A stretch of 64,000 bases of DNA, taken from assembly GCF_014904705.1 (NCBI RefSeq), contig NZ_JACZCQ010000006.1:682001-746000 (forward strand), given 5' to 3'. Origin of the DNA: Nisaea sediminum. Its GTDB lineage: Bacteria > Pseudomonadota > Alphaproteobacteria > Thalassobaculales > Thalassobaculaceae. Below are positions 7,024 through 57,848 of the stretch, piece after piece; position 1 is the first letter of the stretch; every line of letters starts with the position of its first letter. The position numbers were made by a program, and so were the translations under genes. The notes under the pieces are model-generated. The model was not told where the DNA came from and did no database searches. It saw nothing but the letters and a program-made list of their open reading frames with translations.

Positions 7024-7132
7024 GACCGACCTTATTTTTCCGTTACTTCACCTGCTGTGCTAACAGATGCGGGAGAGGCGCGCCTGCTGTCAGCGGTGCG
7101 CCAGATTAGACCATTTCAGAACGTTTGCGGCC

Positions 7133-8191: not shown

Positions 8192-8219
8192 GCGCCGGGC
8201 GGACGTTCCGGAGGAAGGG

Positions 8220-41276: not shown

Positions 41277-41771
41277 TCAGGTGGCGGCGATCCGGTAGAG
41301 ATGTATCCGTCCGGGGCTGATCCCGTCGGGGAGCGGAGCGGCGTTCCAGCGCGGCAGCTCGACCGGCTGGTCGCTCACCACGACCGCGCCGTCCGCGAGG
41401 AGGGCGTCGACCAGAGGCGCGATCTCCGCCGCGAGCGCGATGCTGGTCTGTTTTTCCCCGGTGCCGATATCGAGATGCGCGAGCAGGACGGTGGGCCCGA
41501 GCTGAGCGCGCGCGCGCACAAGGGTTTCGCGGAAATCGCCGAGGAAGATCCGGTCGTCCGCCGGGATGCAATCCGGATGCGCGGCGACCTGCCGGTCGAA
41601 GACGTAGAACGCCCGGTCCGGCATCAGGGAACGCAGATGATCGAAGGTCCGGCCATTGCCGAGCCCGAGTTCTATTGCGTTTCCGGAACGGCCGGCGATG
41701 GCCGAGACGGCCCATTCCAGGCTCAGTTTCTGCGCCTGGAGGCGGCGGATGGCGCTGTCGAGACGGCTCAC
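41277..41771 (-). CDS. Small class I SAM-dependent methyltransferase-like protein
   Basis: A 164-residue protein with a Rossmann-type SAM-binding motif I, AIELGLGNGRTFDHL, followed by an acidic strand end FYVFDRQVAA and a later HLDIGTG. It is short for a complete class I enzyme; target-recognition elements are minimal. The start is a GTG at 41771, only 9 nt after the cNMP-binding gene stop, implying one transcript with the ABC exporter. The acceptor might be the exported compound, which is inference from position. Confidence 0.7.
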   Translation of the reverse strand: MSRLDSAIRRLQAQKLSLEWAVSAIAGRSGNAIELGLGNGRTFDHLRSLMPDRAFYVFDRQVAAHPDCIPADDRIFLGDFRETLVRARAQLGPTVLLAHLDIGTGEKQTSIALAAEIAPLVDALLADGAVVVSDQPVELPRWNAAPLPDGISPGRIHLYRIAAT

Positions 41772-41780
41772 GGTCCGGGT

Positions 41781-42236
41781 TTACCCGTCCTTGTCGGAAA
41801 GCGCGGCGCGCAGGCGCATGTTGGTCTGCTCGAGTCGCGCGGCCAGTTCACGCATGATCTCGACCGCGATCTGCGGGAAATCGGTGACGAGTCGGAAGAA
41901 GGCCTCCTTGGCGATCTTCAGGGTCGTCAGCGATTGCTTCGCCTGGACCGTGGCGGTCCGGGGCACGTCGCAGAGAATGGCGATCTCGCCGACCACATCG
42001 CCTTTGCTGAGCTGTGCCACTTCGATCTTACCGTCATCGGTATCAATCAGGACCGAGGCTGTACCGTCGATGATAATATAAGCGGCGTCGCCGGAATCGC
42101 CCTGATTGAACAAGACCTGACCGTCCGCGTAGTTCAACCGCTCGGAGGTGAAGGCAAGCAGCTTCAGCTTCGACGGCTCGATCTTGGCGAAGAGCGGAAT
42201 GTTCTTCAGCAGCTCGACTTCTTCGTTCAGGCTCAT
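41781..42236 (-). CDS. Stand-alone cyclic-nucleotide-binding domain protein
   Basis: The 151-residue product is essentially one CRP-type cNMP-binding beta-barrel. Its phosphate-binding cassette reads GEIAILCDVPRTATV with the ribose-contacting Glu and phosphate-binding Arg retained, so ligand binding is plausible. There is no helix-turn-helix and no membrane segment, so it is not a transcription factor by itself. GAGGA precedes the ATG at 42236. It lies 30 nt downstream of the ABC exporter gene, suggesting it senses a nucleotide to modulate that exporter or the methyltransferase; this is inference. Confidence 0.85.
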   Translation of the reverse strand: MSLNEEVELLKNIPLFAKIEPSKLKLLAFTSERLNYADGQVLFNQGDSGDAAYIIIDGTASVLIDTDDGKIEVAQLSKGDVVGEIAILCDVPRTATVQAKQSLTTLKIAKEAFFRLVTDFPQIAVEIMRELAARLEQTNMRLRAALSDKDG

Positions 42237-42266: not shown

Positions 42267-44903
42267 CTATTCCTCATCCAGCAGTCCCCGGAACATCGTG
42301 CCTTCCTGGTTCAGACTATCAAAAGTGCCGTCTTCGATCACGCGACCGCCGGACATCACCAGAATTCTGGTGAACGTCTGGGCGAGACGCGCGCGGTGAG
42401 CGACGAAAATCACGGTCCGGCCTTCCGCTTCGGCACAGATCCTGGAAAGGATCGGGGCCTGCAGGCCGGAATCGAGGACCGCGATGGCTTCGTTCAGGAC
42501 GATGACGTCCGGGCGCCGCAACAGGATGCGCGCGATCGCGACCTTCTGGCGCTGCGCCGCGGTCAGCCGGGATCCGGCGATGCCGGCTTCCGCGTCCAGG
42601 CCGACCTCGATCACGATAGCTCTCAGGCCTTCGGACTCGACGACCTCGGCGAGCACCTTGCCGACCTGGTTTCCGGCATCCGCCTGACCGTAGGCGATCT
42701 TGCCGAAAAGAATATTGTCCTGCACCGAGGCGGCAAGGTTGAAGCGGTCGACCGAGAAGAACTCGAGCGCCGTTTGCTGTTCGGCTGGAAGCTCCTCACG
42801 GAACACCTTGCGCGCTTCGAGGATCCGGACCTGCAATTCTTCCGAGATCATTCCGAGGCGGTGGCGTGCCGGGATGAGCTTGAACGGCAATTCGAGGAAA
42901 CGGGTTTTGTCCTCCGCTTCCATCCCGTCGAGGCCGACCCTGTCGGCGCGCTGCAGAAGGGTCTGGAACTCCGGCAGATCGTCCGCGGAGATGAAGGAAT
43001 ATTGCGCGAAGAACTCGTGGTCCGGCGGCAGGTCCTTGAACAGTTCGACCATCGTCGCCGCCACATCGCGGCCGATATGCACGAAATCCTCGGTCAGTCC
43101 GACCTTGTCGAGTACCGACCGGACATAGGGGTCGGAGGCGAGGTGGTCGAGCGCGAAATCGTCGCCGACGGGTGTACCGAACAGAAGGTTTTCGGCAACG
43201 CTGGCATTGGTGTTGAATTTCTCGGCGTCGAAGGGCTCGACCAGGCCGGCGAGACCGAGTTCTTCCAGCCGCGCGCGCAGACGGACCCGCGCGCCGAGAA
43301 TGCGGTTGGCGATCTCCTCCTCGCTCTCGGCCCGCAGCGAGCCGCGCAGTCCGATGGCGTAAACCTCGTCCTCGAGCCCAACCACTTTCAGCAGTTCGGC
43401 GATCCGGTCCTTCAGACCGTTCTCGTCCGCGCCGATGGACTGGTAGTCGATCCAGTTGGCGGAAATCGGATCGAGGGAGTTGCCGGAGGCCTCCGCGTCG
43501 GCGCGCTGTTCCGGAGAATCCGGAAAAACGCTCGGGTCTCCTTCGCCGAAGGGGAGGTGACGCGCGCCCATAAGGATGTTGTCTCGGATCGTGCTGGAGA
43601 ACACGAAGGCGCCGGGCCCGACATAACCGATGCGGCGGCCGGTGACGGATTCCGGCAGGGGAGCGATATCGACGCCGTTGATGGTCACGCTCCCGGAGGT
43701 CGGCAGCACGAGCCGGGCGATGACCGTCGCCAGCAGATCCTTGCCGCCGCCGCCGGGACCGGTGATCGCGACATGCTCGCCTTGCCCGATCTCGATGGAA
43801 ACGCCCTCCAGCAGGACCTCGCCTTCATCGTCGGTCAGGCCAACGTTTCTGAGCGCGACGGGCCCGTCGAGCGAAATCGGTGTTTCCGGCTCGTCCAGCT
43901 GCTGTGCCTCGGTCAGGCTTCCGGCCGGGTCGAACTGCTCGACCACCTGATCGTACTTGATCCGCGAATCTTCCTTGCGCTGGTAGTATGTCAGAAGCTC
44001 CTTCCATGGCGCCGACAGATCCTTGTAGGCGGCGAGGATGGCGACCAGCGCACCGAAGGTCAGGTCGCCCTTTATCACCAGGACACCGCCGATCGAGTAG
44101 AAGAAGAACGGTGTCAGCTGGGCGATGAAATTGTTGAGGAACTTGATGAAAAATTTGCGGCGGTAGATCTCGAAGCGGATCGTGTAGATCTCGCCGAGCA
44201 TGGTGGTGAAATTCGCGAGCGCGAAGCGGGAGGAGTCGTTGGCGTGGATTTCCTGGACGCCGGAAATGCTCTCCCCGATCCGGTCCGAAAGCTTGCGGAC
44301 GGTTCTGACCCGCTCCTTGCCGAGCGCGTTCACCCGCCTCTGCAGCCTTGGAATGAGATAGGCCTGCACCGGATAGAGGGCGATCGCGGCGGTCCCGAGG
44401 ATCGGATCCTGCACGAACATGAAGACGAGGATGGTCAGCAGGGTGCCGCCCTGGAAGGCGGGAAGCGAAATGGCATCGCCGATGAAGCCGCCGAGCGGCT
44501 CCACCTCGGCGGTGATCATCGGGATCACTTCGCCCTGGCTGACCCGGCGGAAATGCGGCAGGGGAAAGCGCAGCACGCGGGCATAGAGATCGTAGCGCAG
44601 CCGCCGCAGCATCCGCTCGCCCAGCTGGCCGCGATAGACGTTGATATAGTATTTGAATCCGCCATTGATGCAGACAAGGCCAAGGAAGAGGCCGCTCAGC
44701 AGCATCAGGTAGGGGATCTGGTCGAGCTGGTAGCCGAAGATGTCCTGCGGCAGGTTCTTGCCGGCGATCGCCTTGTTGATGATCGTTTTCGGGAGGTCGA
44801 GCGAATAGTAGAGGAATGGAAAGGACAGGCCGGTCAGCACGAGCAGAAAGATCTGTTCTTTCTTGCTGTGCCGGAAAATGAACCGGAAAATCGTGGGTTC
44901 CAT
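42267..44903 (-). CDS. ABC exporter with degenerate ATPase and duplicated internal insert
   Basis: An 878-residue half-transporter: an exporter-type membrane domain (about 1-300, roughly six helices) followed by one ATPase domain. The ATPase is atypical. Walker A is GPGGGGKD (382-389) with Asp in place of Ser/Thr. The Walker B segment is IVLNE (801-805) with Asn for Asp. The signature is LTAAQ (780-784) for LSGGQ; the H-loop His836 is present. About 280 residues are inserted between STIRDNILMG (437-446) and the signature. They contain two related repeats ending NASVAENLLFG (566-576) and AASVQDNILFG (724-734). The ATG at 44903 is preferred; the frame extends 48 codons upstream without family-like sequence. 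It is divergent from the glycan cluster. Confidence 0.85.
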   Translation of the reverse strand: MEPTIFRFIFRHSKKEQIFLLVLTGLSFPFLYYSLDLPKTIINKAIAGKNLPQDIFGYQLDQIPYLMLLSGLFLGLVCINGGFKYYINVYRGQLGERMLRRLRYDLYARVLRFPLPHFRRVSQGEVIPMITAEVEPLGGFIGDAISLPAFQGGTLLTILVFMFVQDPILGTAAIALYPVQAYLIPRLQRRVNALGKERVRTVRKLSDRIGESISGVQEIHANDSSRFALANFTTMLGEIYTIRFEIYRRKFFIKFLNNFIAQLTPFFFYSIGGVLVIKGDLTFGALVAILAAYKDLSAPWKELLTYYQRKEDSRIKYDQVVEQFDPAGSLTEAQQLDEPETPISLDGPVALRNVGLTDDEGEVLLEGVSIEIGQGEHVAITGPGGGGKDLLATVIARLVLPTSGSVTINGVDIAPLPESVTGRRIGYVGPGAFVFSSTIRDNILMGARHLPFGEGDPSVFPDSPEQRADAEASGNSLDPISANWIDYQSIGADENGLKDRIAELLKVVGLEDEVYAIGLRGSLRAESEEEIANRILGARVRLRARLEELGLAGLVEPFDAEKFNTNASVAENLLFGTPVGDDFALDHLASDPYVRSVLDKVGLTEDFVHIGRDVAATMVELFKDLPPDHEFFAQYSFISADDLPEFQTLLQRADRVGLDGMEAEDKTRFLELPFKLIPARHRLGMISEELQVRILEARKVFREELPAEQQTALEFFSVDRFNLAASVQDNILFGKIAYGQADAGNQVGKVLAEVVESEGLRAIVIEVGLDAEAGIAGSRLTAAQRQKVAIARILLRRPDVIVLNEAIAVLDSGLQAPILSRICAEAEGRTVIFVAHRARLAQTFTRILVMSGGRVIEDGTFDSLNQEGTMFRGLLDEE

Positions 44904-44972: not shown

Positions 44973-45128
44973 GATACCGTCAGGTAAATGTGCCGCGGGC
45001 CAAACTGGTTTTGCCGCACCGTGCGCTGTGGCATAGTGCACTCTCAAGGGGATATGGTGGGGGTCGAACCTGCGGGTTCAGCAGGGCTTTCCATTCGATA
45101 CAAGGCCGATAACAACGTGGACGGGCGT

Positions 45129-46358
45129 ATGACGTACGCTAGCAACAAGCGCGGCCAGAAGCGTGTCCTGATGTACAGTCACGACACGATGGGGCTCGGC
45201 CACTTGCGCCGTTGCCGGGCGATCGCGCATTCGCTCGTCGAGCAGCAGTCGGACCTGACGGTTCTGATCCTGTCCGGCTCGCCGATCATCGGAAGCTTCG
45301 ATTTCCGCACACGGGTCGATTTCGTGCGCATTCCGGGCGTGATCAAGCTGCGCAACGGCGACTACACCTCGCTCAACCTGCATCTCGACATCGAGGAGAC
45401 GCTCAATCTCCGTTCCTCGATCATCAAGCACACGGCGGACGCTTTCGATCCGGACCTGTTCATCGTCGACAAGGAGCCCTGGGGCCTGCGCGGCGAGGTG
45501 CGCCCGACACTGGAGATGCTGAAGGATCGCGGCACGCCGCTCGTGCTCGGTCTGCGCGACGTGATGGACGAGCCGGAAAAGCTGCTGCCCGAATGGGAGC
45601 GCAAGAACGCGGTCGAGGCCCTGCGCGACGTTTATGACGAGATCTGGGTCTACGGGCTGCAGTCGGTCTGCGATCCCTATTCCGGCATGCCGATGCCCGA
45701 GTCGGTCCATGCCAAGACGCATTATACCGGCTACCTGAAGCGCAAGGTGCCGAGCCACACCCACCCGATCTCGACGACCGATCTAGAGGATCCGTTCATT
45801 CTGGTGACGGCCGGCGGCGGCGGCGACGGCGACGGTCTCATGGACTGGGTCCTGAAGGCCTACGAGTCCGACGACCGTCTGCCCTACCGGGCCCTGCTCG
45901 TGCTCGGCCCCTTCATGCCTGCCGAGTTGCAGAACGATTTCATGGAACGGGCGGCCGAACTCGACCGCGTCGAGGCGATCACCTTCGACGCGCGGATCGA
46001 GAGCATGATGGCCCGCGCCGCCGGGATCGTGGCGATGGGCGGCTACAATACCTTCTGCGAGATCCTGTCCTTTGACAAACGCGGCCTTATCGTGCCCCGG
46101 ACAGAGCCGAGGCTGGAGCAGTTCATCCGCGCGTCGCGCGCCGAGGAACTGGGCATGACGGCGATGCTGGTCGACGACGGCAGCCGCGAGCCCGAGGTCA
46201 TGGCGGATGCGCTGCGGCGCCTGCCAAGCCAGCCGCGCCCCTCCGAGATCATGGCGGCGTCCCTGCTGGATGGCCTTGACGAAGTAAACCGTCTCACCCA
46301 TCGATGGCTCTATGAGCGTCCCGGGTCCAACATCTCGGTGCTCCGCCGCGAGGCGTGA
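45129..46358 (+). CDS. MurG-like (GT28-type) glycosyltransferase, paralogue A
   Basis: A 409-residue GT-B-fold protein with the MurG-type N-terminal motif MGLGHLRRCRAIA and the C-terminal donor-site pattern GIVAMGGYNTFCEIL followed by PRTEPRLEQFIRA. The middle has ILVTAGGGGDGDGLM and LLVLGPFMP. The same landmarks, in the same order, recur in the protein at 49398-50558, so the two are paralogues. Donor and acceptor are unknown. The ATG at 45129 was chosen with GGAC upstream; an ATG at 45054 is in frame. It heads the plus-strand glycan cluster; the next gene starts 36 nt after its stop. Confidence 0.85.
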   Translation: MTYASNKRGQKRVLMYSHDTMGLGHLRRCRAIAHSLVEQQSDLTVLILSGSPIIGSFDFRTRVDFVRIPGVIKLRNGDYTSLNLHLDIEETLNLRSSIIKHTADAFDPDLFIVDKEPWGLRGEVRPTLEMLKDRGTPLVLGLRDVMDEPEKLLPEWERKNAVEALRDVYDEIWVYGLQSVCDPYSGMPMPESVHAKTHYTGYLKRKVPSHTHPISTTDLEDPFILVTAGGGGDGDGLMDWVLKAYESDDRLPYRALLVLGPFMPAELQNDFMERAAELDRVEAITFDARIESMMARAAGIVAMGGYNTFCEILSFDKRGLIVPRTEPRLEQFIRASRAEELGMTAMLVDDGSREPEVMADALRRLPSQPRPSEIMAASLLDGLDEVNRLTHRWLYERPGSNISVLRREA

Positions 46359-46394: not shown

Positions 46395-47672
46395 ATGCGA
46401 GACGGTATGACAGAGCCAGCTTCCAGCGTTCCGACGGCGATCGTGCTGAAAGGCTATCCGCGTCTGTCGGAAACCTTCATCGCGCAGGAAATCCTCGAGC
46501 TGCAGCGGCGCGGGCTGGATTATACGATCGTTTCGCTGCGCCATCCGACCGACAAGGCCACGCATCCGGTGCATGGGCAGATCGCCGCGGCGGTCAATTA
46601 CCTGCCGGAATATCTCTACCAGGCGCCGCTCCGGGTTCTGAAGGCCTGGTGGAAGGTCCGGCGGATGCCCGGTTACGGTTCGGTCTTCCGTCTCTGGCTG
46701 AGGGATCTCCGGCGCGATCCTACACCCAACCGCGGGCGCCGTTTCGGTCAGGCAATGGTTCTCGCCGCCGAACTCGACCCGCATTACCGGCACATCTACG
46801 CGCATTTCCTGCACACGCCATCCTCGGTCGCGCGCTACGCCGCGCTGATGACCGGGCGCAGCTGGTCGGCCTCCGCGCATGCCAAGGACATCTGGCTCAG
46901 TCCCGAGTGGGAGAAGCGGGAGAAGCTGCAGGACGCGGCCTGGGCGGTGACTTGCACCCGCTACGGCCACGCGCATCTCGATGCTCTCGTGCCGGGACGG
47001 ACCCGGCTGGTCTATCACGGTCTCGACCTGTCGAGTTTCGCTCCGGCGGCCCCGAAAGCGTCCGGCAGTGACGGATCGGCGGCGCCGGTGCGGCTGCTCT
47101 CGGTCGGCCGCGCGGTGCCGAAAAAGGGCTTCGACCGGCTGCTGGACGCGCTTGCACGCCTGCCGGAGGGACTGTCCTGGCACTGGACCCATATCGGCGG
47201 CGGCAAGGAGCTGAAAGCGCTGAAGGATCGGGCCGCGCGTCTGGGGATCGCCGGGCGCGTCACCTGGCGCGGCGCGGCCGCGCAGAGCGCGGTGATCGAG
47301 GCCTATCGCGCCTCCGATCTCTTCATCCTGCCGAGCCGGGTGGCCGAGGACGGCGACCGGGATGGCCTTCCGAATGTCCTGATGGAAGCGCAGAGCCAGC
47401 GCCTCTGCTGTCTCGCGACCGCCGTGGCGGCAATTCCCGAGCTCATCGAGAGCGGCGTGACCGGAGAACTTGTTCCGCCGGATGACGGCGTGGCGCTGAC
47501 GGCGGCGCTCGAGGCGCTGATCCGCGATCCGGAGCGGCGTGCCGTGTTGGCCGCGGCCGGGGAGGAACGGGTGCGGAGCCGGTTCGACCATCATTCCGCA
47601 ATCTCCATTCTCGCCGGGCTGCTCGGCCTCGATCAGGCAAATTCCGAATCCGGGACGGACGCGGCAGCGTGA
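46395..47672 (+). CDS. GT4 glycosyltransferase
   Basis: A 425-residue retaining GT-B glycosyltransferase. The N-terminal half contains KGYPRLSETFIAQEI, a motif typical of GT4 enzymes of polysaccharide synthesis. The C-terminal half has RLLSVGRAVPKKGFDRLLDA and the E-x7-E donor motif within GLPNVLMEAQSQ. The sugar donor cannot be named. Its TGA stop overlaps the GTG start of the next gene by 4 nt, the first of four such overlaps in a row, meaning translational coupling along the cluster. Confidence 0.9.
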   Translation: MRDGMTEPASSVPTAIVLKGYPRLSETFIAQEILELQRRGLDYTIVSLRHPTDKATHPVHGQIAAAVNYLPEYLYQAPLRVLKAWWKVRRMPGYGSVFRLWLRDLRRDPTPNRGRRFGQAMVLAAELDPHYRHIYAHFLHTPSSVARYAALMTGRSWSASAHAKDIWLSPEWEKREKLQDAAWAVTCTRYGHAHLDALVPGRTRLVYHGLDLSSFAPAAPKASGSDGSAAPVRLLSVGRAVPKKGFDRLLDALARLPEGLSWHWTHIGGGKELKALKDRAARLGIAGRVTWRGAAAQSAVIEAYRASDLFILPSRVAEDGDRDGLPNVLMEAQSQRLCCLATAVAAIPELIESGVTGELVPPDDGVALTAALEALIRDPERRAVLAAAGEERVRSRFDHHSAISILAGLLGLDQANSESGTDAAA

Positions 47673-48811
47673 GAATCGCTTTCTACGCCCCCTTGAAAGC
47701 CCCCGACGCGCCGACTCCTTCCGGCGACCGGCGCATGGCGCGCCTGCTGATGGCCGCGCTCCGGGCGGGCGGGCACGAGGTTTTCCTCGCCTCGCGCCTG
47801 CGCAGCCGGGACGGCGCGGGCGATCCCGCACGGCAGGAACGCATCGCGTCCCGCGGGACAGGTTACGCCGATCGCTTCGTCGCTTGTTGCGAAAACGGAA
47901 GGATCGCGGCGCCGGATCTCTGGTTCACCTATCACCTCTACTACAAGGCACCGGATCATATCGGTCCCCGTGTCGCGGAGCGGCTCGGTATTCCCTATGT
48001 CGCCGCCGAGGCCTCCAACGCGCCGAAACGGTCGGAGGGGTCCTGGGCGGCCTCCCACCGGCGCGTGCTCGACGCGATTGGCCGGGCGGATCTCGTCATC
48101 GGATTCAACAGCCGGGACAAGGCCTGTCTCCTGCCGGTCCTGAAGCCCGGGAGCGCTTATCTCGACCTGAAACCCTTCGTCGACGGGCTGCCCTATCCGA
48201 ACCGGCCGGCCGCTGCGGATCTCCGGGCGGAACTCGGAATCGCGGACCGGGATCCCCTGCTGCTGGCGGTGGGCATGATGCGTCCCGGCGTGAAAATCGC
48301 TTCCTACAGGCTGCTGGCCGAGGCTTTGTCCGCGCTCCCGCCGGCACGGCGCTGGACACTCCTGATCGCGGGAGACGGACCGGCCCGTGCCGAGGTCGAG
48401 CAGGCATTTGCGGCGCATGGCGACCGGGTGCGCTTCCTCGGCGCAGTCGGGCCCGAGCGTCTGACGGAGCTCTATCTTGGCTCCGATATCCTCGCCTGGC
48501 CCGCGATCAACGAAGCCTACGGCATGGCCCTGCTGGAAGCGCAGGCAGCCGGGCTTCCCGTGGTTGCGGGCGATGTCGGCGGCGTTCCGGACATCGTGAC
48601 CGACGGCGTGACGGGACTGCTCTCTCCCGAGGGCAACATGGCAGGGTTTGCCGCCAATCTCGACCGGCTGCTCACCGACCCGGAGCTGGTCCGGCAAATG
48701 GGTGACGCGGCACGGACCAAGACAAACCGGCTCCACAGTCTCGAAGCCGCCGCTGTCCGCCTGGATACGGCGCTCAATAAACTTCTGCGGCCCGAGAGGA
48801 CGCGGCCGTGA
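47669..48811 (+). CDS. GT4-family glycosyltransferase
   Basis: A 380-residue GT-B protein with MRIAFYAPLKAPDAPTPSGD at the N-terminus and, in the C-terminal half, LLAVGMMRPGVKIASYRLL, then YGMALLEAQAAGLPVV with the E-x7-E pattern and DGVTGLL. These are standard GT4 elements. The start is GTG, coupled to the preceding gene by a 4-nt overlap, and the gene ends by overlapping the phosphatase start in the same way. Substrate unknown. Confidence 0.9.
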   Translation: MRIAFYAPLKAPDAPTPSGDRRMARLLMAALRAGGHEVFLASRLRSRDGAGDPARQERIASRGTGYADRFVACCENGRIAAPDLWFTYHLYYKAPDHIGPRVAERLGIPYVAAEASNAPKRSEGSWAASHRRVLDAIGRADLVIGFNSRDKACLLPVLKPGSAYLDLKPFVDGLPYPNRPAAADLRAELGIADRDPLLLAVGMMRPGVKIASYRLLAEALSALPPARRWTLLIAGDGPARAEVEQAFAAHGDRVRFLGAVGPERLTELYLGSDILAWPAINEAYGMALLEAQAAGLPVVAGDVGGVPDIVTDGVTGLLSPEGNMAGFAANLDRLLTDPELVRQMGDAARTKTNRLHSLEAAAVRLDTALNKLLRPERTRP

Positions 48812-49401
48812 GGATCGGGTTCCTGCGTCACGGCCCGACGGCATGGAACGCGGAGAAGCGCCTGCAGGGCCGTGCCGACATCCCGCTCTCCGAAGCAGGC
48901 CACGCGATGGCCGCGGGATATAGCCTTCCGGAAGAGTTTCGCGGTGTTCCCGCCTTCGTCTCGCCGCTCGAGAGGGCGCGCGAAACGGCTGAACTCGCGG
49001 GGATTGAGAACGCGACCGTGGATCCTCTGCTCATAGAGATGAATTGGGGGGACTGGGAAGGTGAACGGCTTCCCGACCTGCGCAAACGTTACGGAAAAGA
49101 AATGGAAACGAACGAGGCACGTGGCCGCGACTTCCGCCCTGCCGGCGGGGAGAGCCCGCGCGAGGTTCAGGACCGGCTGCAAACCGTCTTCACCAGACTG
49201 AACGACCTGAGGCCACGGCCGGAGCGTTGCCTTCTGGTGACCCATAAGGGGGTGATCCGAGCGGGGCTCGCACTGGCTTTCGGCTGGGACATGACCGGAA
49301 AACCGCCGGTCCGGCTTGACTGGTCGGCGCTCCATGTGGTCCGTCTCGACGCCGATGGGACGCTCGAGCCCGATGCCATGAATGTGAGCCTGCTTCCATG
49401 A
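48808..49401 (+). CDS. Histidine phosphatase-family protein
   Basis: A 197-residue member of the phosphoglycerate-mutase-like branch. The catalytic histidine is in LRHGPTAWN (about residue 8), the acid region in SPLERARETAEL, and the second histidine in LLVTHKGVIRA. Its place among glycosyltransferases suggests it removes phosphate from a sugar or sugar-nucleotide intermediate, as such enzymes do in heptose and nucleotide-sugar pathways; that is inference. GTG start with 4-nt overlap on each side. Confidence 0.88.
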   Translation: MRIGFLRHGPTAWNAEKRLQGRADIPLSEAGHAMAAGYSLPEEFRGVPAFVSPLERARETAELAGIENATVDPLLIEMNWGDWEGERLPDLRKRYGKEMETNEARGRDFRPAGGESPREVQDRLQTVFTRLNDLRPRPERCLLVTHKGVIRAGLALAFGWDMTGKPPVRLDWSALHVVRLDADGTLEPDAMNVSLLP

Positions 49402-50558
49402 CGGATCCCCGGTCGAATTCGCTCTTCCTCTATGTCCAGAACCTGCTCGGGATCGGGCATCTGCGCCGCGCGGCGGCGGTCGCCCAGGCCGCGGCCGCGG
49501 CGGGTTTCGAAGTGCATTTCGTCTCCGGCGGCATGCCGGTGCCGCATCTCGATATCGGGGCCGCGAAGCTGCATCAGCTGCCGCCGGTCAGGGCGGCGGA
49601 CACGCTCTTCAAGGTGCTCGAGGACGAGAACGGGCGGCAGATCGACGACGCCTGGAAGGCGGCGCGCCGCGACCGGTTGCTCGCACTGTTCGAGGAGATC
49701 CGCCCGTCGATCCTCTTCACCGAGCTGTTTCCCTTCGGCCGCCGGCAGATGCGCTTCGAATTGCTGCCGCTTCTGGACCTTGCGAAGGAGGCGTCCTGGA
49801 AACCGAAGATCGTCTCCTCGATGCGGGACATCCTGGTCACCAAGCCCCGGCCCGACAGGAACCGGGAAATCGTCGAGACCGTCGACCGGTACTACGATCT
49901 GGTTCTCGTGCATGGCGACGAGGACGTCATCAGCCTGGCCGACACCTTTCCGATGTATGACGAGCTGACGCCGCCGGTTCGCTATACCGGCTATGTGCTG
50001 AACCCGATCGATACCGGCAACGGGAAGGGCGACGGCGAGGGCGAGATCTTGGTTTCCGCTGGCGGTGGTGCCGTCGGCGGCAGCTTCATGACCGAACTGG
50101 CGCGCCTCCGCCCGGATCTGCCTTTCGCCGACCGCACCTGGCGCTTCGTCACCGGCCCGCACATGCCGGAGGAGGCCGCGCGGGAGATCGAAAGCCATGC
50201 CGGCCCGGGCGTCATCGTGGAGCGGAGCCGCCCGGATCTCGCCGCACTCATTGCGCGTGCATATCTATCGATTTCCCAGGCCGGCTACAACACGCTCGCC
50301 GAGATCCTGACCGCCGGGACCGCCTCCGTCGTGATCCCGTTCGAAGGCGGTGTCGAGACTGAACAGCGGGTGCGCGCCGACCTCCTCGCCCGGCGCGGCC
50401 GCCTTGCTGTGGTTCCGGAAGGAGCGCTGACCCTCGACACACTCTCCGCTGCTATGGAGACGGCCGTGGCGGCTCGTGATAGGGGCGTCGCAGGCGTGGA
50501 TCTCGACGGAGCGGCCGGTACCGCGCATATCCTGAACGGTTTGCTGGAGCAGGCATGA
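49398..50558 (+). CDS. MurG-like (GT28-type) glycosyltransferase, paralogue B
   Basis: A 386-residue paralogue of the protein at 45129-46358. Shared landmarks are GIGHLRRAAAVAQ, VRYTGYVLNP, ILVSAGGGAVGGSFM, FVTGPHMP and the donor-site AGYNTLAEILTAGTASVVIP. The presence of two such enzymes in one cluster suggests consecutive sugar additions of similar chemistry, or a glycan made from alternating units. ATG start overlapping the phosphatase stop by 4 nt; the 3' end overlaps the deacetylase start by 4 nt. Confidence 0.85.
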   Translation: MTDPRSNSLFLYVQNLLGIGHLRRAAAVAQAAAAAGFEVHFVSGGMPVPHLDIGAAKLHQLPPVRAADTLFKVLEDENGRQIDDAWKAARRDRLLALFEEIRPSILFTELFPFGRRQMRFELLPLLDLAKEASWKPKIVSSMRDILVTKPRPDRNREIVETVDRYYDLVLVHGDEDVISLADTFPMYDELTPPVRYTGYVLNPIDTGNGKGDGEGEILVSAGGGAVGGSFMTELARLRPDLPFADRTWRFVTGPHMPEEAAREIESHAGPGVIVERSRPDLAALIARAYLSISQAGYNTLAEILTAGTASVVIPFEGGVETEQRVRADLLARRGRLAVVPEGALTLDTLSAAMETAVAARDRGVAGVDLDGAAGTAHILNGLLEQA

Positions 50559-51328
50559 GCGGGGGTGCCGCAACGCCGGACGAGCTCAGGCGCGCGCTCG
50601 ATGCTTCGGCAGAGGCCGGCCGGCCCCTCGATTTCTGGTGGCGGGACGACGATCTGCAGCGGCCGGGTGCGGAGCTTGAGCCGTTGCTGGCGCTTGTAGG
50701 CGCGACGGGATGGGTGCCGGGCCTTGCCGTCGTGCCGGAGGGCATGGACGCGGACGGGTTGCTGGCCCGGTTGGCGGAGACCGGTGCCGAACTGCTTGTC
50801 CATGGCTTCGCGCACCGCAACCATGCCACTGCCGGTGCGAAGAAATGCGAGTTTCCTGGAACGCGCTCGACGGATGAGATGTGCCGGGATGCTGCGCAAG
50901 GCCTCCACCGCATGAATGCGGCTTTCGGTGGGAGTTGCCTTCCGTGTTTCGTTCCGCCCTGGAATCGAATTGCGCCGGAGCTGATTGCGGAATTGGCGGC
51001 CTGCGGTTTTTCGGCACTGTCGGCCTTCGGGCCGCGCCGCACCGCGGAGCCGGCCCCGGGGTTGAAATGTGTGAACACGCATATTGACCTCATCGACTGG
51101 CGTGGTACCCGTCGATTTGTCGGTATCGGGGCGGTGCGGGCGGCGATCATCCGTCATCTGGCGGCGGTCCGTGCCGGCGGGGCGGAGGCGGAGGAGCCCT
51201 GCGGACTCCTGACCCATCATCTGATAATGGTGGAGCAGGATTGGCACGCACTCGGAGTTCTGGTGGCAGAGCTCGCCGCCCACGAAGGGGTTCGCCTCTT
51301 TGCGCCAAGTGACTGTTTTTGCTCATGA
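50555..51328 (+). CDS. Polysaccharide deacetylase-like protein
   Basis: A 257-residue protein of the carbohydrate-esterase-4/NodB-like type. Expected motifs are recognisable though spaced loosely: WWRDDDLQRPG (metal and base aspartates), LLVHGFAHRNHA (metal histidines), CFVPPWNRIAP, and LLTHHLIM near the C-terminus. No signal peptide is seen, so it would act in the cytosol, for instance on a lipid-linked or nucleotide-linked acetyl sugar. It is coupled to the glycosyltransferase gene by a 4-nt overlap and is the last recognisable enzyme of the cluster. Confidence 0.82.
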   Translation: MSGGAATPDELRRALDASAEAGRPLDFWWRDDDLQRPGAELEPLLALVGATGWVPGLAVVPEGMDADGLLARLAETGAELLVHGFAHRNHATAGAKKCEFPGTRSTDEMCRDAAQGLHRMNAAFGGSCLPCFVPPWNRIAPELIAELAACGFSALSAFGPRRTAEPAPGLKCVNTHIDLIDWRGTRRFVGIGAVRAAIIRHLAAVRAGGAEAEEPCGLLTHHLIMVEQDWHALGVLVAELAAHEGVRLFAPSDCFCS

Positions 51329-51338
51329 AGGATGACGG

Positions 51339-51839
51339 ATGAGTCTGCACGCCTATCAGAAAAACGCCCTTATCGCGGACTATCTGCGCGGCGGGATCGG
51401 CTTTGCGGTCACCGCTTTTCCGGTCGTGTTCTCTCCTATGCTCGGCACCTTCCAGATCATCTTTGCGCTGATTTCCTTGGTTTTCGCCGGTTTCCTGCTG
51501 AAAACCTGGCTGCGTGCCCAGACCCGGGTCGAGGTCGCCGACGAGGGCATCAGGACTCTGGGGCCGTTCGCAAAGAGCATCGCCTGGCCGGATCTGGCGG
51601 AAATGGATCTGCGCTACTATTCGACCCAGAAAGACAAGGCGAAAGGCTGGATGCATCTGATCCTAAAGGGCGGCGACGGCACGAAAATCAGCGTCGAATC
51701 CACACTTGACGGTTTCGATACGGTGCTTGAGCATGCCGCTGCGGCCGCTGGTCGGAACGGCGTCGCTCTCAACCAGACGACAACCGAAAATCTGACGGCC
51801 GCAGGGGTATCGATGGGGCTTGCCGCGGGGGATCGCTAG
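51339..51839 (+). CDS. Small membrane protein with PH-like domain, unknown function
   Basis: A 166-residue protein with two adjacent hydrophobic helices (about 20-60, GFAVTAFPVVFSPMLG and TFQIIFALISLVFAGFLL) followed by a soluble part, VEVADEGIRTLGPFAKSIAWPDLAEMDLRYY, that reads like the strand pattern of bacterial PH-like domains. I do not recognise a characterised homologue. It starts 10 nt after the deacetylase and ends 29 nt before the peptide ABC transporter, so it bridges the two operons. Confidence 0.7.
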   Translation: MSLHAYQKNALIADYLRGGIGFAVTAFPVVFSPMLGTFQIIFALISLVFAGFLLKTWLRAQTRVEVADEGIRTLGPFAKSIAWPDLAEMDLRYYSTQKDKAKGWMHLILKGGDGTKISVESTLDGFDTVLEHAAAAAGRNGVALNQTTTENLTAAGVSMGLAAGDR

Positions 51840-51868: not shown

Positions 51869-53764
51869 ATGATCGACCAGCTGACACCGCTTCTGCGGGT
51901 CAGGGACCTGCAGGTCGCGTTCGACCTGCCGGGTGGCGAATTGCTTGCCGTCAACAAGGTTTCCTTCCAGGTTCGTGCCGGATCCACGGTCGCCCTTGTC
52001 GGCGAGTCCGGGTCCGGCAAGAGCGTCGTCAGCCAGGCCATCATGGGGCTGTTGCCGTCTATCGCGCAGATCCGCGGCGGGTCCATTCTCTTCGCCGACG
52101 ATCGGGCCAAGGGCACGATCACCGATATCGCCCGGTTGAAACGCAACAGCCGCGAGATGCGCCAGATCCGCGGCGGCCGGATCTCGCTGATTTTCCAGGA
52201 GCCGATGACCTCGCTCTCGCCGTTGCATACGGTAGGCAACCAGATTCGCGAGGCGCTGGAACTGCATCGCAGCGTCTCCGGGCGCGAGGCCAACGAGCTG
52301 ACCGAGGAAATGCTGCGCATGGTCGGCTTTCCGGACCCGGTGCGGGCCATGCGGACCTATCCGTTCGAGCTTTCCGGAGGTCTCCGTCAGCGTGCGATGA
52401 TCTCGATGGCGCTGATCTGTCGCCCCTCTCTGCTGATCGCCGACGAGCCGACGACCGCCCTCGATGTCACCATCCAGGCGCAGATCCTGAAGCTGATGAA
52501 GGATCTGCAGGCCGAACTCGGCATGGCCGTGCTGATGATCACCCACGATCTCGGGGTCGTCGCCAACATGGCCGACGACGTCGTGGTGATGTATCGCGGC
52601 CGGATCATGGAAAGCGGCACCCGGGACGAGCTCTACCGCAATCCGCAGCACCCGTACCTGAAGGCGCTGATGGCGGCGGTGCCGCGCTTCAACATGGAGC
52701 CCGGCGAACGGCTGGTGCCGATCCGCGAGATCAAGAGCGAGACCGGCCACCTGCTGGCGCCGACCGGAGAGGAAAAGAAGGCCCCCCAGCACAAACCGAT
52801 CCTCAAGGTCGATAACCTTTCGAAATGTTTTACCATCCGCAAGGGGGCCTGGCTCTCGAGCGAGGAATCAAAGGTCTATGCGCTCGACGATGTCAGCTTC
52901 GAGGTGAAGCCCGGCGAATGCCTCGGCCTCGTCGGGGAGTCCGGCTGCGGCAAGACCACGCTCAGCAAGACCATTATGCGGGCGCTGTCCCCCGATCAGG
53001 GCTCTGTGACCTATTGCGACCAGGATGGCGAGATCGACGTGCTCGGGCTTTCCGGCGACGCGCTGACTGGTTTCCGCCAGAAGCTGCAATTCGTCTTCCA
53101 GGACCCGTTCAGCTCCCTCAATCCCCGCATGACGGTGTTCGATATCGTCAGCGAGCCGCTGGTGATTCACGGGATCGGCGACGATGCCTACCGGCGCGAG
53201 ATGGTCTCCGAACTGATGAAGCTGGTCGGTCTCGACGCACGCCATCTGAACCGCTATCCGCACAGCTTCTCCGGCGGCCAGCGCCAGCGCATCGGCATCG
53301 CCCGCGCGCTCGCCCTGAAGCCGCGTATGCTGATCTGCGACGAGCCGGTTTCGGCTCTCGACGTCTCGATCCAGGCACAGGTGCTGAACCTGCTGAAGGA
53401 CCTGCAGGAGCAACTGAACCTGACCTATCTCTTCATCTCGCATAACCTCGCGGTGGTGGATTACATCGCCGACCGGATCGCGGTGATGTGCGCCGGCCGG
53501 CTGGTCGAGCTGGCGCCGCGCGAGGAGCTGTTCCGCAACCCGGTGCATCCCTATACCAAGGCGCTGCTGCGGGCGGTCCCGGACCCGAGCCTCGACAATC
53601 CGCTTGATTTCGAGTCCGTAATGGACCAGCGCTGCTCGGTTCCTTCCGAATGGCCGGCACCCTTCACGGTGAGCGAGCAGACCCATCCGCGCCTGATCGA
53701 TCTCGGCGGCGGGCATTTCGTCCGTGCCGACGAGTCCGCCTTGACCCTGAGGTTGGCATCGTGA
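51869..53764 (+). CDS. Oligopeptide ABC transporter, fused double ATPase (YejF-like)
   Basis: Two Opp-type ATPase domains in one 631-residue chain: Walker A sequences GESGSGKS (45-52) and GESGCGKT (356-363), signatures SGGLRQR and SGGQRQR, Walker B LLIADEP and MLICDEP, and the C-terminal oligopeptide zinc-ribbon-like segments HPYLKAL and HPYTKALL after each domain. This is the DppD-DppF fusion seen in YejF-type peptide importers. The stop overlaps the substrate-binding protein start, so the operon order is ATPase, binding protein, permease, permease. Confidence 0.93.
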
Positions 53765-55668
53765 TGCTGCGCTCTCTGCTCTTTGCATTCGTGTTTGCGG
53801 TGGCTGCGGCGACGGCGTCCGCCGGAGAGGTGCCTTATCTGGCCAAGGATGTCGCGAGCGGTGTGCTTCCGCCGGTGACGGAGCGGCTGCCGCAGCCGCC
53901 TCTGACCGTCGATTTGGCGGCGCGCGGTCAGACGCCCGGCAAATATGGCGGCGCGTTGCGGATGCTGATGGCGCGCAGCAAGGACACGCGGCAGATGACG
54001 GTCTACGGCTATGCCCGTCTGGTCAGCCATCAGCCCGGAGATTTCGAGCTCTTCGCCGACATCCTCGAGCGCTTCGAGGTCGAGGAAGAGCGCGTCTTCA
54101 CCTTCACGCTGCGCCGGAACCACCGCTGGTCCGACGGCCATCCCTTCACGACCGAGGATTTCCGCTACTTCTGGGAAGATGTCGCGAACAGCCCGGAGCT
54201 TTCGCCGGCCGGTCCGCCGAACCTGATGCTGGTGGACGGCGAGGCGCCGCTCTTCCAGGTGCTCGACGAGCGGACGGTGCGCTACAGCTGGTCGAAACCG
54301 AACCCGGACTTCCTGCCGTCGCTCGCCAAGGCGAGCCCGCTCTATCTCTACCGCCCCGCGCATTATCTGAAGCCGTTCCACGCCGCCTATGCGTCGGAGG
54401 AGGAGCTGGCGAAGCGGGTCGAGGATGCGCACCAGCGCAACTGGGCGGCGTTGCACAACAAGATGGACAATCTCTACCGGATGGATAATCCGGACCTGCC
54501 GGTGCTGCAGCCTTGGAAGGTGACCGGCAGCGCGACCTCGACCCGGTTCCGGTTCGAGCGCAATCCGTATTTCCATCGGGTCGATCCCGAGGGGCGCCAG
54601 CTGCCATACATCGACGAGGTGATCTTTGACGTCGCGAGCCCGGGCCTCATTCCGGCCAAGGTCGGCTCCGGCGACGCGGACCTTCAGGCGCGCTATCTCT
54701 CCTTCGACGATTACACCTTCCTGAAGCAGGCGGAGGACCGGTTCCCGTTCGAGACCCGGCTCTGGCGCACCGCCAAAGGCTCACAAGTGGCGCTCTTCCC
54801 GAATCTCAATGCCGCCGACCCTGTCTGGCGCGAGCTCTTCCGCGACGTGCGCTTCCGCCGCGCACTGTCGATGGCGATCAACCGGCACGAGATCAACCAG
54901 GTCATCTACTACGGCCTCGCCTATGAGGGGAACGACACGGTTCTCCCCGCCTCGCCGCTCTACGAGAAGGACTATCAGACCCGCTGGGCGCAGTTCGACC
55001 TGAAGCAGGCGAACCGGCTGCTCGACGAGATCGGCCTCCCGCGTGACGAGGACGGGATCCGGCACCTGCCGGACGGCCGGCCGCTGGAGCTGATCGTCGA
55101 GACCGCCGGCGAGAGCACCAAGCAGACCGATATCCTGTCGCTGATCCACGATTCCTGGCTCGAGGCGGGGATCAAGCTCTTCACTCGCCCGTCGCAGCGC
55201 AACGTTTTCCGCAACCGGGTGTTCGCGGGCGAGACGCTGGTCTCCGTCTGGTCCGGGGTCGAGAACGGATTGGCCACCGCCGATACCAGCCCCGCCGATT
55301 TCGTGCCCTATTCCCAGCAGCAGCTGCAATGGCCGAAATGGGGTCAGTATATCGAGACCGGCGAACAGTCCGGCGAGGAGATCGCGCTGGAGCCCGCGCG
55401 GCGGCTGCGCGCGCTCTATTACCGCTGGCGCGATGCCGGGACGCGGGCGGCGAAGCGCGCGGCCTGGAAGGAGATCCTGGAGATCAACGCGGACCAGGTC
55501 TTCAGCATCGGCCTCGTCTCCGGCGTGCTGCAGCCGGTCGTGGTGCATTCCAACCTGCAGAACGTGCCGAAGGAAGCGATCTACAACTGGGATCCGGGAG
55601 CGCATTTCGGCGTCTATCTGCCCGATACCTTCTGGTTCGGCGAAACGCCGGCCAAGAGCGCGGACTAG
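53764..55668 (+). CDS. Family 5 extracellular solute-binding protein of the peptide transporter
   Basis: A 634-residue periplasmic receptor of the Opp/Dpp class with a clear signal peptide (hydrophobic core to ATASAGEV, about residue 21). KYGGALRMLMARSKD early on and FRRALSMAINRHEINQV midway are family-5 landmarks. It is longer than typical dipeptide receptors and closer to YejA in size, suggesting larger ligands; the specificity is not readable. ATG at 53764, or the GTG one codon earlier. It overlaps the ATPase stop. Confidence 0.9.
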   Translation: MLRSLLFAFVFAVAAATASAGEVPYLAKDVASGVLPPVTERLPQPPLTVDLAARGQTPGKYGGALRMLMARSKDTRQMTVYGYARLVSHQPGDFELFADILERFEVEEERVFTFTLRRNHRWSDGHPFTTEDFRYFWEDVANSPELSPAGPPNLMLVDGEAPLFQVLDERTVRYSWSKPNPDFLPSLAKASPLYLYRPAHYLKPFHAAYASEEELAKRVEDAHQRNWAALHNKMDNLYRMDNPDLPVLQPWKVTGSATSTRFRFERNPYFHRVDPEGRQLPYIDEVIFDVASPGLIPAKVGSGDADLQARYLSFDDYTFLKQAEDRFPFETRLWRTAKGSQVALFPNLNAADPVWRELFRDVRFRRALSMAINRHEINQVIYYGLAYEGNDTVLPASPLYEKDYQTRWAQFDLKQANRLLDEIGLPRDEDGIRHLPDGRPLELIVETAGESTKQTDILSLIHDSWLEAGIKLFTRPSQRNVFRNRVFAGETLVSVWSGVENGLATADTSPADFVPYSQQQLQWPKWGQYIETGEQSGEEIALEPARRLRALYYRWRDAGTRAAKRAAWKEILEINADQVFSIGLVSGVLQPVVVHSNLQNVPKEAIYNWDPGAHFGVYLPDTFWFGETPAKSAD

Positions 55669-55680
55669 GGGAGAGAAGAC

Positions 55681-56679
55681 GTGCTGACCTACCTGATCCG
55701 CCGCATCCTGATCATGATCCCGACGCTGATCGCCATCAGCATCATCACCTTCGTGATCATCCAGCTCCCGCCCGGCGATTATCTCACCACGATGATCAAC
55801 GAGATGCAGAGCCAGGGCGAGAATGTCGACCAGTCGAAGATCGAGGCGCTCCGGGCGCAGTACGGTCTCGACCGGCCGATGTACGAGCAGTATTTCCTCT
55901 GGGCGACCGGGCTGCTGCGGGGCGATTACGGCTATTCCTTCGAATACCAGCTTCCGGTGGCCGACGTGGTCGGGGACCGGGTATTCCTGACCTTCGTGCT
56001 CAATTTCGCGACCATTCTCTTCATCTGGGCGGTCGCCTTCCCGATCGGCATCTATTCGGCCTGCAACCAGTACAGCCTCACCGATTACGGACTGACCTTC
56101 GTCGGCTTCATCGGACTGGCGACGCCGAACTTCCTGCTCGCGCTGATCCTACTTTATCTCGCCAATATCTGGTTCGGCACCTCGATCGGCGGATTGATGG
56201 ACCCGCAATATCTCGACCAGCCCTGGAGCACGGCCAAGGCATTGTCGGTGCTTGAGCATCTCTGGGTCCCGGTCGTCGTCATCGGCACCTCCGGCACGGC
56301 GGCGATGATCCGGCGGCTGCGCGCCAACCTGCTGGACGAGCTGCAGAAACAGTATGTGGTCACCGCCCGCGCCAAGGGCCTGCCGCCGTTCCGCGCGCTG
56401 ATGAAATATCCGCTCAGGATGTCGCTGAACCCCTTCATCGCCGATATCGGCAACATGCTGCCGCAGGTCATCTCGGGCTCCGCCGTGGTCTCCATGGTAC
56501 TGTCGCTGCCGACCACCGGTCCGATGCTGATCGGCGCGCTGCAGAGCCAGGACATGTATCTCGCCGGCTCCTTCCTGATGTTCCTCGCGCTGCTGACTGT
56601 GATCGGAATGTTCGTTTCCGACCTGTTGCTGGCGTTGCTCGATCCGAGAATCCGGCTCGGCGGAGGAGCGAATCGATGA
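55681..56679 (+). CDS. Peptide ABC transporter permease (DppB-type)
   Basis: A 332-residue inner-membrane permease with six hydrophobic helices. It starts MLTYLIRRILIMIPTLIAIS, which is the standard DppB/OppB opening, and the conserved permease loop is AKGLPPFRALMKYPLR. GTG start behind GGGAGAGAAG. Overlaps the partner permease gene by 4 nt. Confidence 0.93.
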   Translation: MLTYLIRRILIMIPTLIAISIITFVIIQLPPGDYLTTMINEMQSQGENVDQSKIEALRAQYGLDRPMYEQYFLWATGLLRGDYGYSFEYQLPVADVVGDRVFLTFVLNFATILFIWAVAFPIGIYSACNQYSLTDYGLTFVGFIGLATPNFLLALILLYLANIWFGTSIGGLMDPQYLDQPWSTAKALSVLEHLWVPVVVIGTSGTAAMIRRLRANLLDELQKQYVVTARAKGLPPFRALMKYPLRMSLNPFIADIGNMLPQVISGSAVVSMVLSLPTTGPMLIGALQSQDMYLAGSFLMFLALLTVIGMFVSDLLLALLDPRIRLGGGANR

Positions 56680-57848
56680 GCATTTCCTCGAGCGAAGGCC
56701 CGCGCACCGACCATTACGTCAACCGGGAGCCGTTCAATCCGGATACGGACACCGTCCTGACGCCGGAGCAGGAACGCTATTACATGGCGTCCCAGTGGCA
56801 GATGATGTGGTGGAAACTGAAGCGGCACCGCGTCGCGGTCATTTCCGGCCTGTTTCTGGTCCTGCTCTATCTCTCGACCATCATCAGCGAGATGATCGCG
56901 CCCTATGGGCTGGCCACCAGGCATACCGACTCGATCTACGCGCCGCCGCAGCGGGTGCACCTGTTCCACGAGGGCAGCTATGTCGGCCCCTTCGTCTACG
57001 GGCTGGACTACACGCTGAACATGCGCAACCTGAAGCGCGAATACACGCCGAACACCGAGAAGGTCGAGAAGCTGCGCTTCTTCTGTAGCGGTGACCCCTA
57101 CAAGTTCTGGGGCATGGCGGAGATGGACTTCCATCTGGTCTGTCCGGCGGAGGGCGGGACGCTGTTCCTGCTCGGGACCGACCGGCTCGGACGCGACATG
57201 TTCTCGCGCATCATCTACGGCACCCGGATCTCGCTCACCGTCGGCCTCATCGGCATAGCCGTAAGCTTCGTGCTCGGGATCGTCATCGGCGGCATGGCGG
57301 GATATTACGGCGGCTGGGTCGACAGCCTGACCCAGCGCGTCATCGAGGTGATCCGCTCCTTCCCGGAACTGCCGCTCTGGATGGCGCTCTCGGCGGCCCT
57401 GCCGGTCACCTGGAGCCCGATCCTGATCTATTTCGGCATCACCATCATCCTCGGCCTGCTGGACTGGACCGGCCTCGCGCGCGCCGTGCGCTCCAAGCTC
57501 CTGGCCCTTCGCGAGGAGGATTTCGCCGTCGCCGCCCAGCTGATGGGCGCGAAGCCGAAACGGATCATCGGCCGCCACCTGCTGCCGAGCTTCATGAGTC
57601 ACCTGATCGCCTCGGCGACGCTGTCGATCCCGTCGATGATCCTCGGCGAAACCGCGCTCAGCTTCCTCGGGCTCGGGCTGCGTCCCCCGATCACCTCCTG
57701 GGGTGTGCTCCTGACCGAGGCGCAGAACATCAACGCGGTCGAACTCTACCCCTGGATCATGGCCCCGGTGGTGCCGGTGATCCTGGTCGTGCTTGCCTTC
57801 AATTTCTTCGGTGACGGGCTGCGCGACGCAGCGGATCCCTACAAGTAA
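56676..57848 (+). CDS. Peptide ABC transporter permease (DppC-type)
   Basis: A 390-residue permease pairing with the DppB-type subunit. It has a long cytoplasmic N-terminus of about 45 residues and a periplasmic stretch with two cysteines before LLGTDRLGRDMFSRIIYGTR, the OppC/DppC signature. The permease loop is AAQLMGAKPKRIIGRHLLP. It is the last gene of the transporter operon; pgk begins 80 nt later without a visible terminator. Confidence 0.93.
   Translation: MSISSSEGPRTDHYVNREPFNPDTDTVLTPEQERYYMASQWQMMWWKLKRHRVAVISGLFLVLLYLSTIISEMIAPYGLATRHTDSIYAPPQRVHLFHEGSYVGPFVYGLDYTLNMRNLKREYTPNTEKVEKLRFFCSGDPYKFWGMAEMDFHLVCPAEGGTLFLLGTDRLGRDMFSRIIYGTRISLTVGLIGIAVSFVLGIVIGGMAGYYGGWVDSLTQRVIEVIRSFPELPLWMALSAALPVTWSPILIYFGITIILGLLDWTGLARAVRSKLLALREEDFAVAAQLMGAKPKRIIGRHLLPSFMSHLIASATLSIPSMILGETALSFLGLGLRPPITSWGVLLTEAQNINAVELYPWIMAPVVPVILVVLAFNFFGDGLRDAADPYK

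Follow-up and report, generated by a model that had tools for sequence, protein, structure and literature searches.

The window examined here is a 64,000-nucleotide stretch of the Nisaea sediminum genome (contig NZ_JACZCQ010000006.1, positions 682,001 to 746,000). It contains a gene for a relative of ATP-binding cassette (ABC) exporters, followed directly downstream by a gene for a small protein with a cyclic-nucleotide-binding (cNMP) domain. An initial annotation had rightly called an ABC exporter gene at 42267-44903; the gene lies on the minus strand, with its ATG at 44903, its stop codon at 42269-42267 and a translation that begins MEPTIFRF. This ATG was preferred over an upstream TTG of the longer frame because Met1 is at least 90% conserved in alignment A1, which holds the window protein and 47 of the 65 loci obtained by scanning one genome per species. 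The 18 loci left out of A1 comprise 14 that encode the transmembrane domain (TMD) only, three that are incomplete (L038, L044 and L046) and one that is split (L064).

The exporter gene and the unit repeated within its ATPase domain

Pfam searches with the window exporter matched ABC_membrane (PF00664, 1e-21) and, in a split match, ABC_tran (PF00005, 2.6e-16). Together with Foldseek searches using the AlphaFold model, they placed a TMD and then an ABC-type nucleotide-binding domain (NBD) in a single chain. Many exporters were also matched in NCBIfam and in sequence searches of the PDB, with all 25 NCBIfam matches listed scoring far below their cut-offs; Foldseek TM-scores were modest, at 0.26-0.66 by target or query length among the rows inspected. 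The AlphaFold model has a mean predicted local distance difference test (pLDDT) score of 84.2. From residue 341 on, 38 of 54 ten-residue blocks reach 90 or more, and values below 50 occur at residues 157-177 and 292-297, both in the TMD. The features of the two adjoining genes are as follows.

42270..44903, minus strand: pseudo-ABC exporter, 878 amino acids, with an exporter TMD and a degenerate NBD carrying a repeated Q-loop/alpha-subdomain unit
43929..44903, minus strand: TMD, residues 1-325 (Pfam ABC_membrane)
43563..43868, minus strand: N-terminal core of the degenerate NBD, residues 346-447
43737..43760, minus strand: degenerate Walker A, GPGGGGKD, residues 382-389
42699..43562, minus strand: insert as delimited in the initial annotation, residues 448-735; no Pfam match
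43245..43649, minus strand: copy 1 of the proposed unit, residues 419-553, with the Q-loop strand, STIRDNILMG, helices and the helix RILGARVRLRARL
42774..43259, minus strand: copy 2, the least certain, residues 549-710, with LVEPF, FNTNASVAENLLFG, helices and the helix RILEARKVFREEL
42510..42788, minus strand: copy 3, residues 706-798, with ALEFF, FNLAASVQDNILFG, helices, the signature LTAAQ and the signature helix
42552..42566, minus strand: degenerate signature LTAAQ, residues 780-784
42489..42506, minus strand: degenerate Walker B, VIVLNE, residues 800-805
41781..42236, minus strand: cyclic-nucleotide-binding protein, 151 amino acids (cNMP_binding PF00027, 2.5e-20)

The 878-residue translation verifies the departures from consensus first read from the sequence, namely Asp389 at the Ser/Thr position of Walker A, Asn804 at the Asp position of Walker B and LTAAQ as the signature. 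The Q-loop Gln, which had gone unmentioned, is likewise absent (IGYVGPGAF), and the presumed aromatic position of the A-loop is Asp358.

Between Gly446 of the post-Q-loop motif STIRDNILMG and Leu780 at the start of the signature there are 334 residues, compared with about 40 in an ordinary exporter (L067) from the same genome; the extra sequence therefore measures about 290 residues, close to the 280 estimated initially. Searched alone, this insert gave no match in Pfam and one chance-level match in the PDB (E 0.75). The initial annotation had read it as a tandem duplication of ATPase sequence, with two aligned stretches ending at residues 576 and 734. Self-alignment of residues 448-600 with 601-760 gave a score of 72, which none of 2000 shuffles reached (the top shuffle came near, at 68), and the ends of the repeat pair fell at Gly576 and Gly734 as proposed. 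The match of the canonical copy to the later ones was weak in the single sequence, where 8 of 2000 shuffles scored as high with tight borders and 126 of 2000 with wide ones, and became clear only with profiles.

These profiles were built from up to 130 aligned sequences for segments 419-553, 549-710 and 706-812. Compared with hhalign, the three pairs of copies scored 35.5, 63.2 and 28.0 (probabilities of 82, 98 and 48%), against maxima of 16.1, 11.0 and 8.4 in 60 column shuffles each. As an independent reference, we used the segment from the Q-loop to the signature helix of the ordinary exporter and its orthologues. It scored 52, 17.6 and 100 with copies 1, 2 and 3, where the maxima of 40 shuffles each were 10.7, 9.3 and 15.8; each copy thus matches the canonical segment above chance, copy 2 weakly, and the probabilities for copies 1 and 3 were 96 and 99%. 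Two TMD segments and the N-terminal core of the NBD, taken as controls, matched the reference at chance level. By these profiles the insert is ABC-ATPase sequence, and it is well supported that the start of the unit, consisting of the Q-loop strand, the NLxFG motif and the helices that follow, occurs in three tandem copies, the resident one included.

How the copies end is less certain. In one hhalign alignment the long helix of copy 1 falls on the signature helix of copy 3, and in the single-sequence alignment it pairs with the long helix of copy 2, which suggests a counterpart of the signature helix in each copy; the remaining pairwise alignments leave the long helices unpaired. In the AlphaFold model each copy consists of a strand, a short helix with NLxFG, a short strand, helices and a long helix. 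The model of a fused relative (mean pLDDT 83.9) assigns no short strand behind its first NLxFG helix.

Motif drift across the family and the cyclic-nucleotide-binding partner

Of 289 alphaproteobacterial genomes searched, 97 (71 of 223 genera) had a match, in some cases a fragment, and all 21 genomes with a match among 299 sampled Pseudomonadota were from Alphaproteobacteria. Some of the 65 loci from the scan bear gammaproteobacterial names (Oceanospirillaceae, Aliamphritea). Open reading frames (ORFs) were taken as full-length when they scored above 400 with the family hidden Markov model and their match began before model position 30 and extended past position 840. This gave 139 ORFs, and 129 non-redundant members after ORFs identical over the first 400 residues were dropped; the 129 include the window gene (L066) and a 97% identical relative, L001. 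Below these limits fell L038, L044, L046, L139, the split L064, the TMD-only ORFs and, narrowly on coverage though it is part of A1, L045; apart from L045, the ORFs under the limit are incomplete, split, TMD-only or ordinary exporters.

Conservation of the insert in homologues had been set beforehand as a test of the initial proposal. The insert was present in 130 of 130 aligned sequences (the 129 members and the window), with lengths of 312-346 residues, the members having been selected with a model that itself contains it. Within it, N572, F575, G576, R698, N730 and G734 are at least 95% conserved among the 129 members.

The catalytic residues have drifted. Lys388 of Walker A is kept in 74 of the 129 members and replaced by Arg in 36 more, Glu805 of Walker B is kept in 67 and His836 of the H-loop in 47; a Gln anywhere at positions 429-431 is found in 39 and the signature Gly-Gly in one. 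All five core residues are present in a single member (L065), and none in 22. The intact Walker A, Walker B, signature and H-loop that mark an ATP-driven exporter in sequence are thus lacking. Asp389 and Asn804, whose conservation was to be checked as the mark of a specialised family, are among the commonest states at their positions (Asp or Glu at 389 in 91 of 129, with Ser or Thr in 14; Asn at 804 in 71, with Asp in 18), and neither is fixed.

As a control, we examined the 29 best-scoring orthologues, from 63 genomes with a match, of the ordinary exporter from the same genome (identity 58-68%). The Lys, Ser/Thr, Asp, Glu and His were kept in 29 of 29, and the signature glycines in 27 and 29 of 29. 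The NBD of the control orthologues is more conserved than their TMD (0.77 and 0.70), whereas in the family the TMD (0.66) exceeds the insert (0.56), the N-terminal core of the NBD (0.52) and the C-terminal part (0.46); since the control set is more closely related than the family, only the direction of this contrast is comparable. FastTree trees built from the TMD or from the full-length sequence imply 17-26 changes at each of K388, E805 and H836, as against about 39-44 for shuffled labels, which indicates that these states are inherited in part; for R792 and G774 they imply one or two changes. The catalytic residues are under weaker selection than the TMD, the NBD fold and parts of the insert. 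The initial proposal of a regulated, slow or inactive ATPase is supported, and an inactive enzyme is a better fit than a slow one, given that the catalytic positions change repeatedly while some structural ones are fixed.

The 151-residue protein encoded next to the exporter gene has no other Pfam domain above cut-off, and its phosphate-binding cassette, GEIAILCDVPRTA, is intact. When this protein was aligned with the top BLAST matches to it from the fetched loci, the Gly, Glu and Arg of the cassette were present in 121, 117 and 121 of 121 rows, respectively. An intact cassette is expected of a domain that binds cyclic AMP (cAMP) or cyclic GMP (cGMP), and the partner is accordingly predicted to bind a cyclic nucleotide. 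A cNMP gene lies downstream on the same strand in 105 of the 129 members (median gap to the match 32 nt, largest 619), and in 13 the cNMP domain is fused to the C-terminus of the exporter, a state that changes two or three times by parsimony. Two of three fused stretches scanned also encode a GGDEF-type domain; it follows the cNMP domain (L024, 8578-9570; L028, 8578-9504), and its motif looks degenerate.

Several loci show other gene structures. The member of Aliamphritea spongicola (L064, 6048-8561) is read as three overlapping pieces in more than one frame. Homologue matches are in two frames on pSymB of Sinorhizobium meliloti 1021 (L178, 18001-20659) and in one frame in strain 2011 (L179, 18001-20658). 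The TMD-only paralogues (L048, L049, L051-L057, L059-L063 and L166, the last at 6926-8200 on the minus strand) are 384-482 residues long, carry an extension at the N-terminus and lack an NBD, and in 7 of the 15 examined a small gene with a CxxCH motif (cytochrome c-like) lies directly downstream. These paralogues were considered as proof that the NBD is dispensable, an argument that is weakened because 12 of the 14 genomes that carry them also hold a full-length member.

A probable surface-glycan gene neighbourhood

The remaining genes around the exporter in the window include a divergently transcribed operon for glycan synthesis.

41277..41771, minus strand: S-adenosylmethionine-dependent methyltransferase (Methyltransf_17), with a relative in 61 of 129 member loci
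45120..46358, plus strand: GT28-type glycosyltransferase, divergent from the exporter; first gene of the glycan operon
46395..51328, plus strand: rest of the glycan operon, encoding two GT4-type glycosyltransferases, a histidine phosphatase, a GT28-like protein and a weakly deacetylase-like protein (below Pfam cut-offs)
51869..57848, plus strand: oligopeptide-type ABC importer, with a double ATPase, an SBP_bac_5 protein and two permeases

At the end of the glycan operon, 51339-51839 on the plus strand encodes a 166-residue protein with no Pfam match and weak matches in L024 and L025. Similar genes recur across the family: a GT28-type gene is found in at least 95 of the 129 member loci (two GT28 models probably cross-match), the two GT4 types in at least 70 and at least 71, and the methyltransferase in at least 61. 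These counts are lower bounds because many loci from the 289-genome search have only about 1.5 kb of flank. Much of the cluster, including the importer, surrounds the homologue on Rhizobium etli p42e, in Mesorhizobium and Azospirillum and on S. meliloti pSymB, and an adenylate/guanylate cyclase gene lies near the homologue in rhizobial records. In S. meliloti RCAM1750 the second GT28-like gene (L167, 13884-14985) is in two frames and unannotated; the gene is in one frame in strains 1021 and 2011.

The pSymB cluster has a candidate function. According to the portions consulted of a study combining transposon sequencing (Tn-seq) with mutants, an uncharacterised surface polysaccharide that protects against phazolicin, termed PPP (phazolicin-protecting polysaccharide), requires nine genes in the interval smb21252-smb21271; sensitivity is raised in mutants of smb21252 and of smb21265, each designated a glycosyltransferase (PMC10128002). 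In the same account the adenylate cyclase gene cyaA was depleted in the Tn-seq screen, its mutant changes little, and cAMP control is cited for genes possibly involved in PPP (PMC10128002). Seven of the nine PPP genes rise under attack by Myxococcus, as reported in the excerpt used here (PMC10315480). Much of the gene content of the glycan cluster occurs in order on S. meliloti pSymB, whose records for strains 1021 and 2011 carry no locus tags, and we infer from gene order and product names that the Sinorhizobium counterpart is the PPP cluster (smb21252-smb21271).

A proposed switch in place of a motor, alternatives and known relatives

On balance we think it probable, judging from motifs, partner and gene context, that the window protein represents an alphaproteobacterial family of pseudo-ABC exporters that would serve as the membrane part of surface-glycan synthesis and be controlled by a cyclic nucleotide rather than driven by ATP hydrolysis of its own. 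The exporter TMD is retained, and the NBD keeps its fold but under this model would have lost ATP hydrolysis. The segment with the alpha-subdomain, the part that contacts the membrane domain, is present in three tandem copies. Since the cNMP domain is either fused to the C-terminus or encoded adjacently, it presumably docks on the complex and would set its state, so that a cAMP or cGMP switch would replace the drive by ATP hydrolysis. The complex would form the membrane component of a PPP-type pathway, probably as a flippase for lipid-linked glycan or as a gate or scaffold for glycosyltransferases. In ordinary exporters the alpha-subdomain contacts the coupling helices of the TMD, and its enlargement therefore fits a change from motor to lever. 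A more specific form of the idea, which we put forward tentatively and hold to be possible at most, is that the ATP motor was traded for a cNMP switch in which the repeated segment acts as a lever from the docked cNMP domain to the TMD, yielding a flippase or scramblase for glycolipid, or a synthase gate, that is controlled by cAMP or cGMP and independent of ATP.

Several observations weigh against this interpretation. The window protein still has Lys388, Glu805 and His836 (in AHR); across the family the Walker A glycines 382 and 387 are kept in 117 of 129 members each, the signature Gln in 111 and the D-loop Asp in 114, and the block from the signature to the D-loop is conserved (0.65) on a par with the TMD. 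Because these residues are kept, nucleotide binding is possible. As for the repeat, the hhalign probability of copy 2 against the ordinary-exporter segment is only 5%, and in the alignment with the ordinary reference the signature helix of the latter falls on a helix of copy 1 that precedes the proposed one. No cNMP gene was seen in at least 1.7 kb of downstream sequence for 11 of the 129 members. The link to PPP is based on gene order and product names, and the pseudo-ABC gene is at most a candidate for one of the nine PPP genes. Moreover, the cAMP-controlled polysaccharide cluster named in the part consulted of the Clr paper is nodP2-smb21248, which ends before smb21252 (PMC5498481).

One alternative explanation is a working but rewired ATPase, in which the charge of the Walker B Asp would have moved to Asp or Glu389, paired with Asn804, and hydrolysis would be slow or regulated. 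This reading draws on the joint occurrence of Asp/Glu389 and Asn804 in 55 of 129 members, on Lys388, Glu805 and His836 in the window protein and on the glycines, signature Gln and D-loop Asp that are mostly kept. The pairing is loose, however, since Asp/Glu389 is also accompanied at 804 by Asp in 8 members and by other residues in 28, and losses affect Lys388 in 55 of 129 (36 to Arg), Glu805 in 62, His836 in 82 and the Gly-Gly in 128; we consider a rewired ATPase unlikely. A heterodimer, in which the window protein would be the regulatory or degenerate half and an ordinary ABC half would hydrolyse ATP, has precedent. Exporters with one degenerate half are common, TM287/288, TmrAB and CydDC being heterodimers with altered catalytic residues in one half, and TmrAB chains rank high among the single-chain Foldseek matches. 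Nevertheless, within the fetched flanks, many of them short, an ordinary full-length exporter gene accompanies the family in one of 128 loci and is lacking nearby in 127, the family varies in Walker A, Walker B, Q-loop, signature and H-loop alike, and the signature Gly-Gly that a consensus site needs from a half of this type is absent in 128 of 129 members. A heterodimer of this kind, whose ordinary half may be encoded elsewhere in the genome, is fairly improbable. Finally, the many broken catalytic motifs might be those of a decaying pseudogene with a junk insert, an explanation to which we give almost no credence and which we rejected on account of insert residues at least 95% conserved and intact frames in 129 members; every full-length member has both open frame and insert, and the partner and gene context are conserved.

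The cyclic-nucleotide-controlled pseudo-ABC exporter that we favour can be compared with established relatives. The type IV (B-family) exporters, such as MsbA, TmrAB, P-glycoprotein and HepA-type proteins, share its TMD fold, NBD fold and order of motifs and are its best Foldseek and profile matches, but the window family lacks the catalytic motifs family-wide and has about 290 inserted residues; judged by its motifs, the protein would count as an exporter relative of known fold and not as an ATP-driven exporter. In NHLP bacteriocin exporters (TIGR03797), too, an ABC protein of the exporter type has a cNMP domain in the same chain or in an accompanying gene. These exporters keep an ordinary ATPase and serve peptide export, whereas the present family has its cNMP domain at the C-terminus or as a separate protein, in a setting of glycan synthesis; TIGR03896, for an NHLP-associated protein, matches the window partner at 2e-15, below its cut-off. 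The PPP cluster smb21252-smb21271 is, by gene order, the probable counterpart on pSymB, and the portions of its description drawn on here mention neither a pseudo-ABC gene nor a cNMP protein (PMC10128002).

The protein and its combination of features were not found described in the open-licence full text of PubMed Central. If our interpretation is correct, the family is a natural experiment on an exporter membrane domain without its motor. It would also be, to our knowledge, the first among ABC exporters to pair a cNMP partner with degenerate catalytic motifs and a repeated alpha-subdomain segment, and perhaps supplies a missing membrane part of a surface polysaccharide that shields rhizobia from antimicrobials. 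Such a protein, which most likely is not a functioning ATP-driven transporter, is encoded in about one third of the alphaproteobacterial genomes sampled (97 of 289), and database records name members of the family 'ABC transporter ATP-binding protein' or similar.

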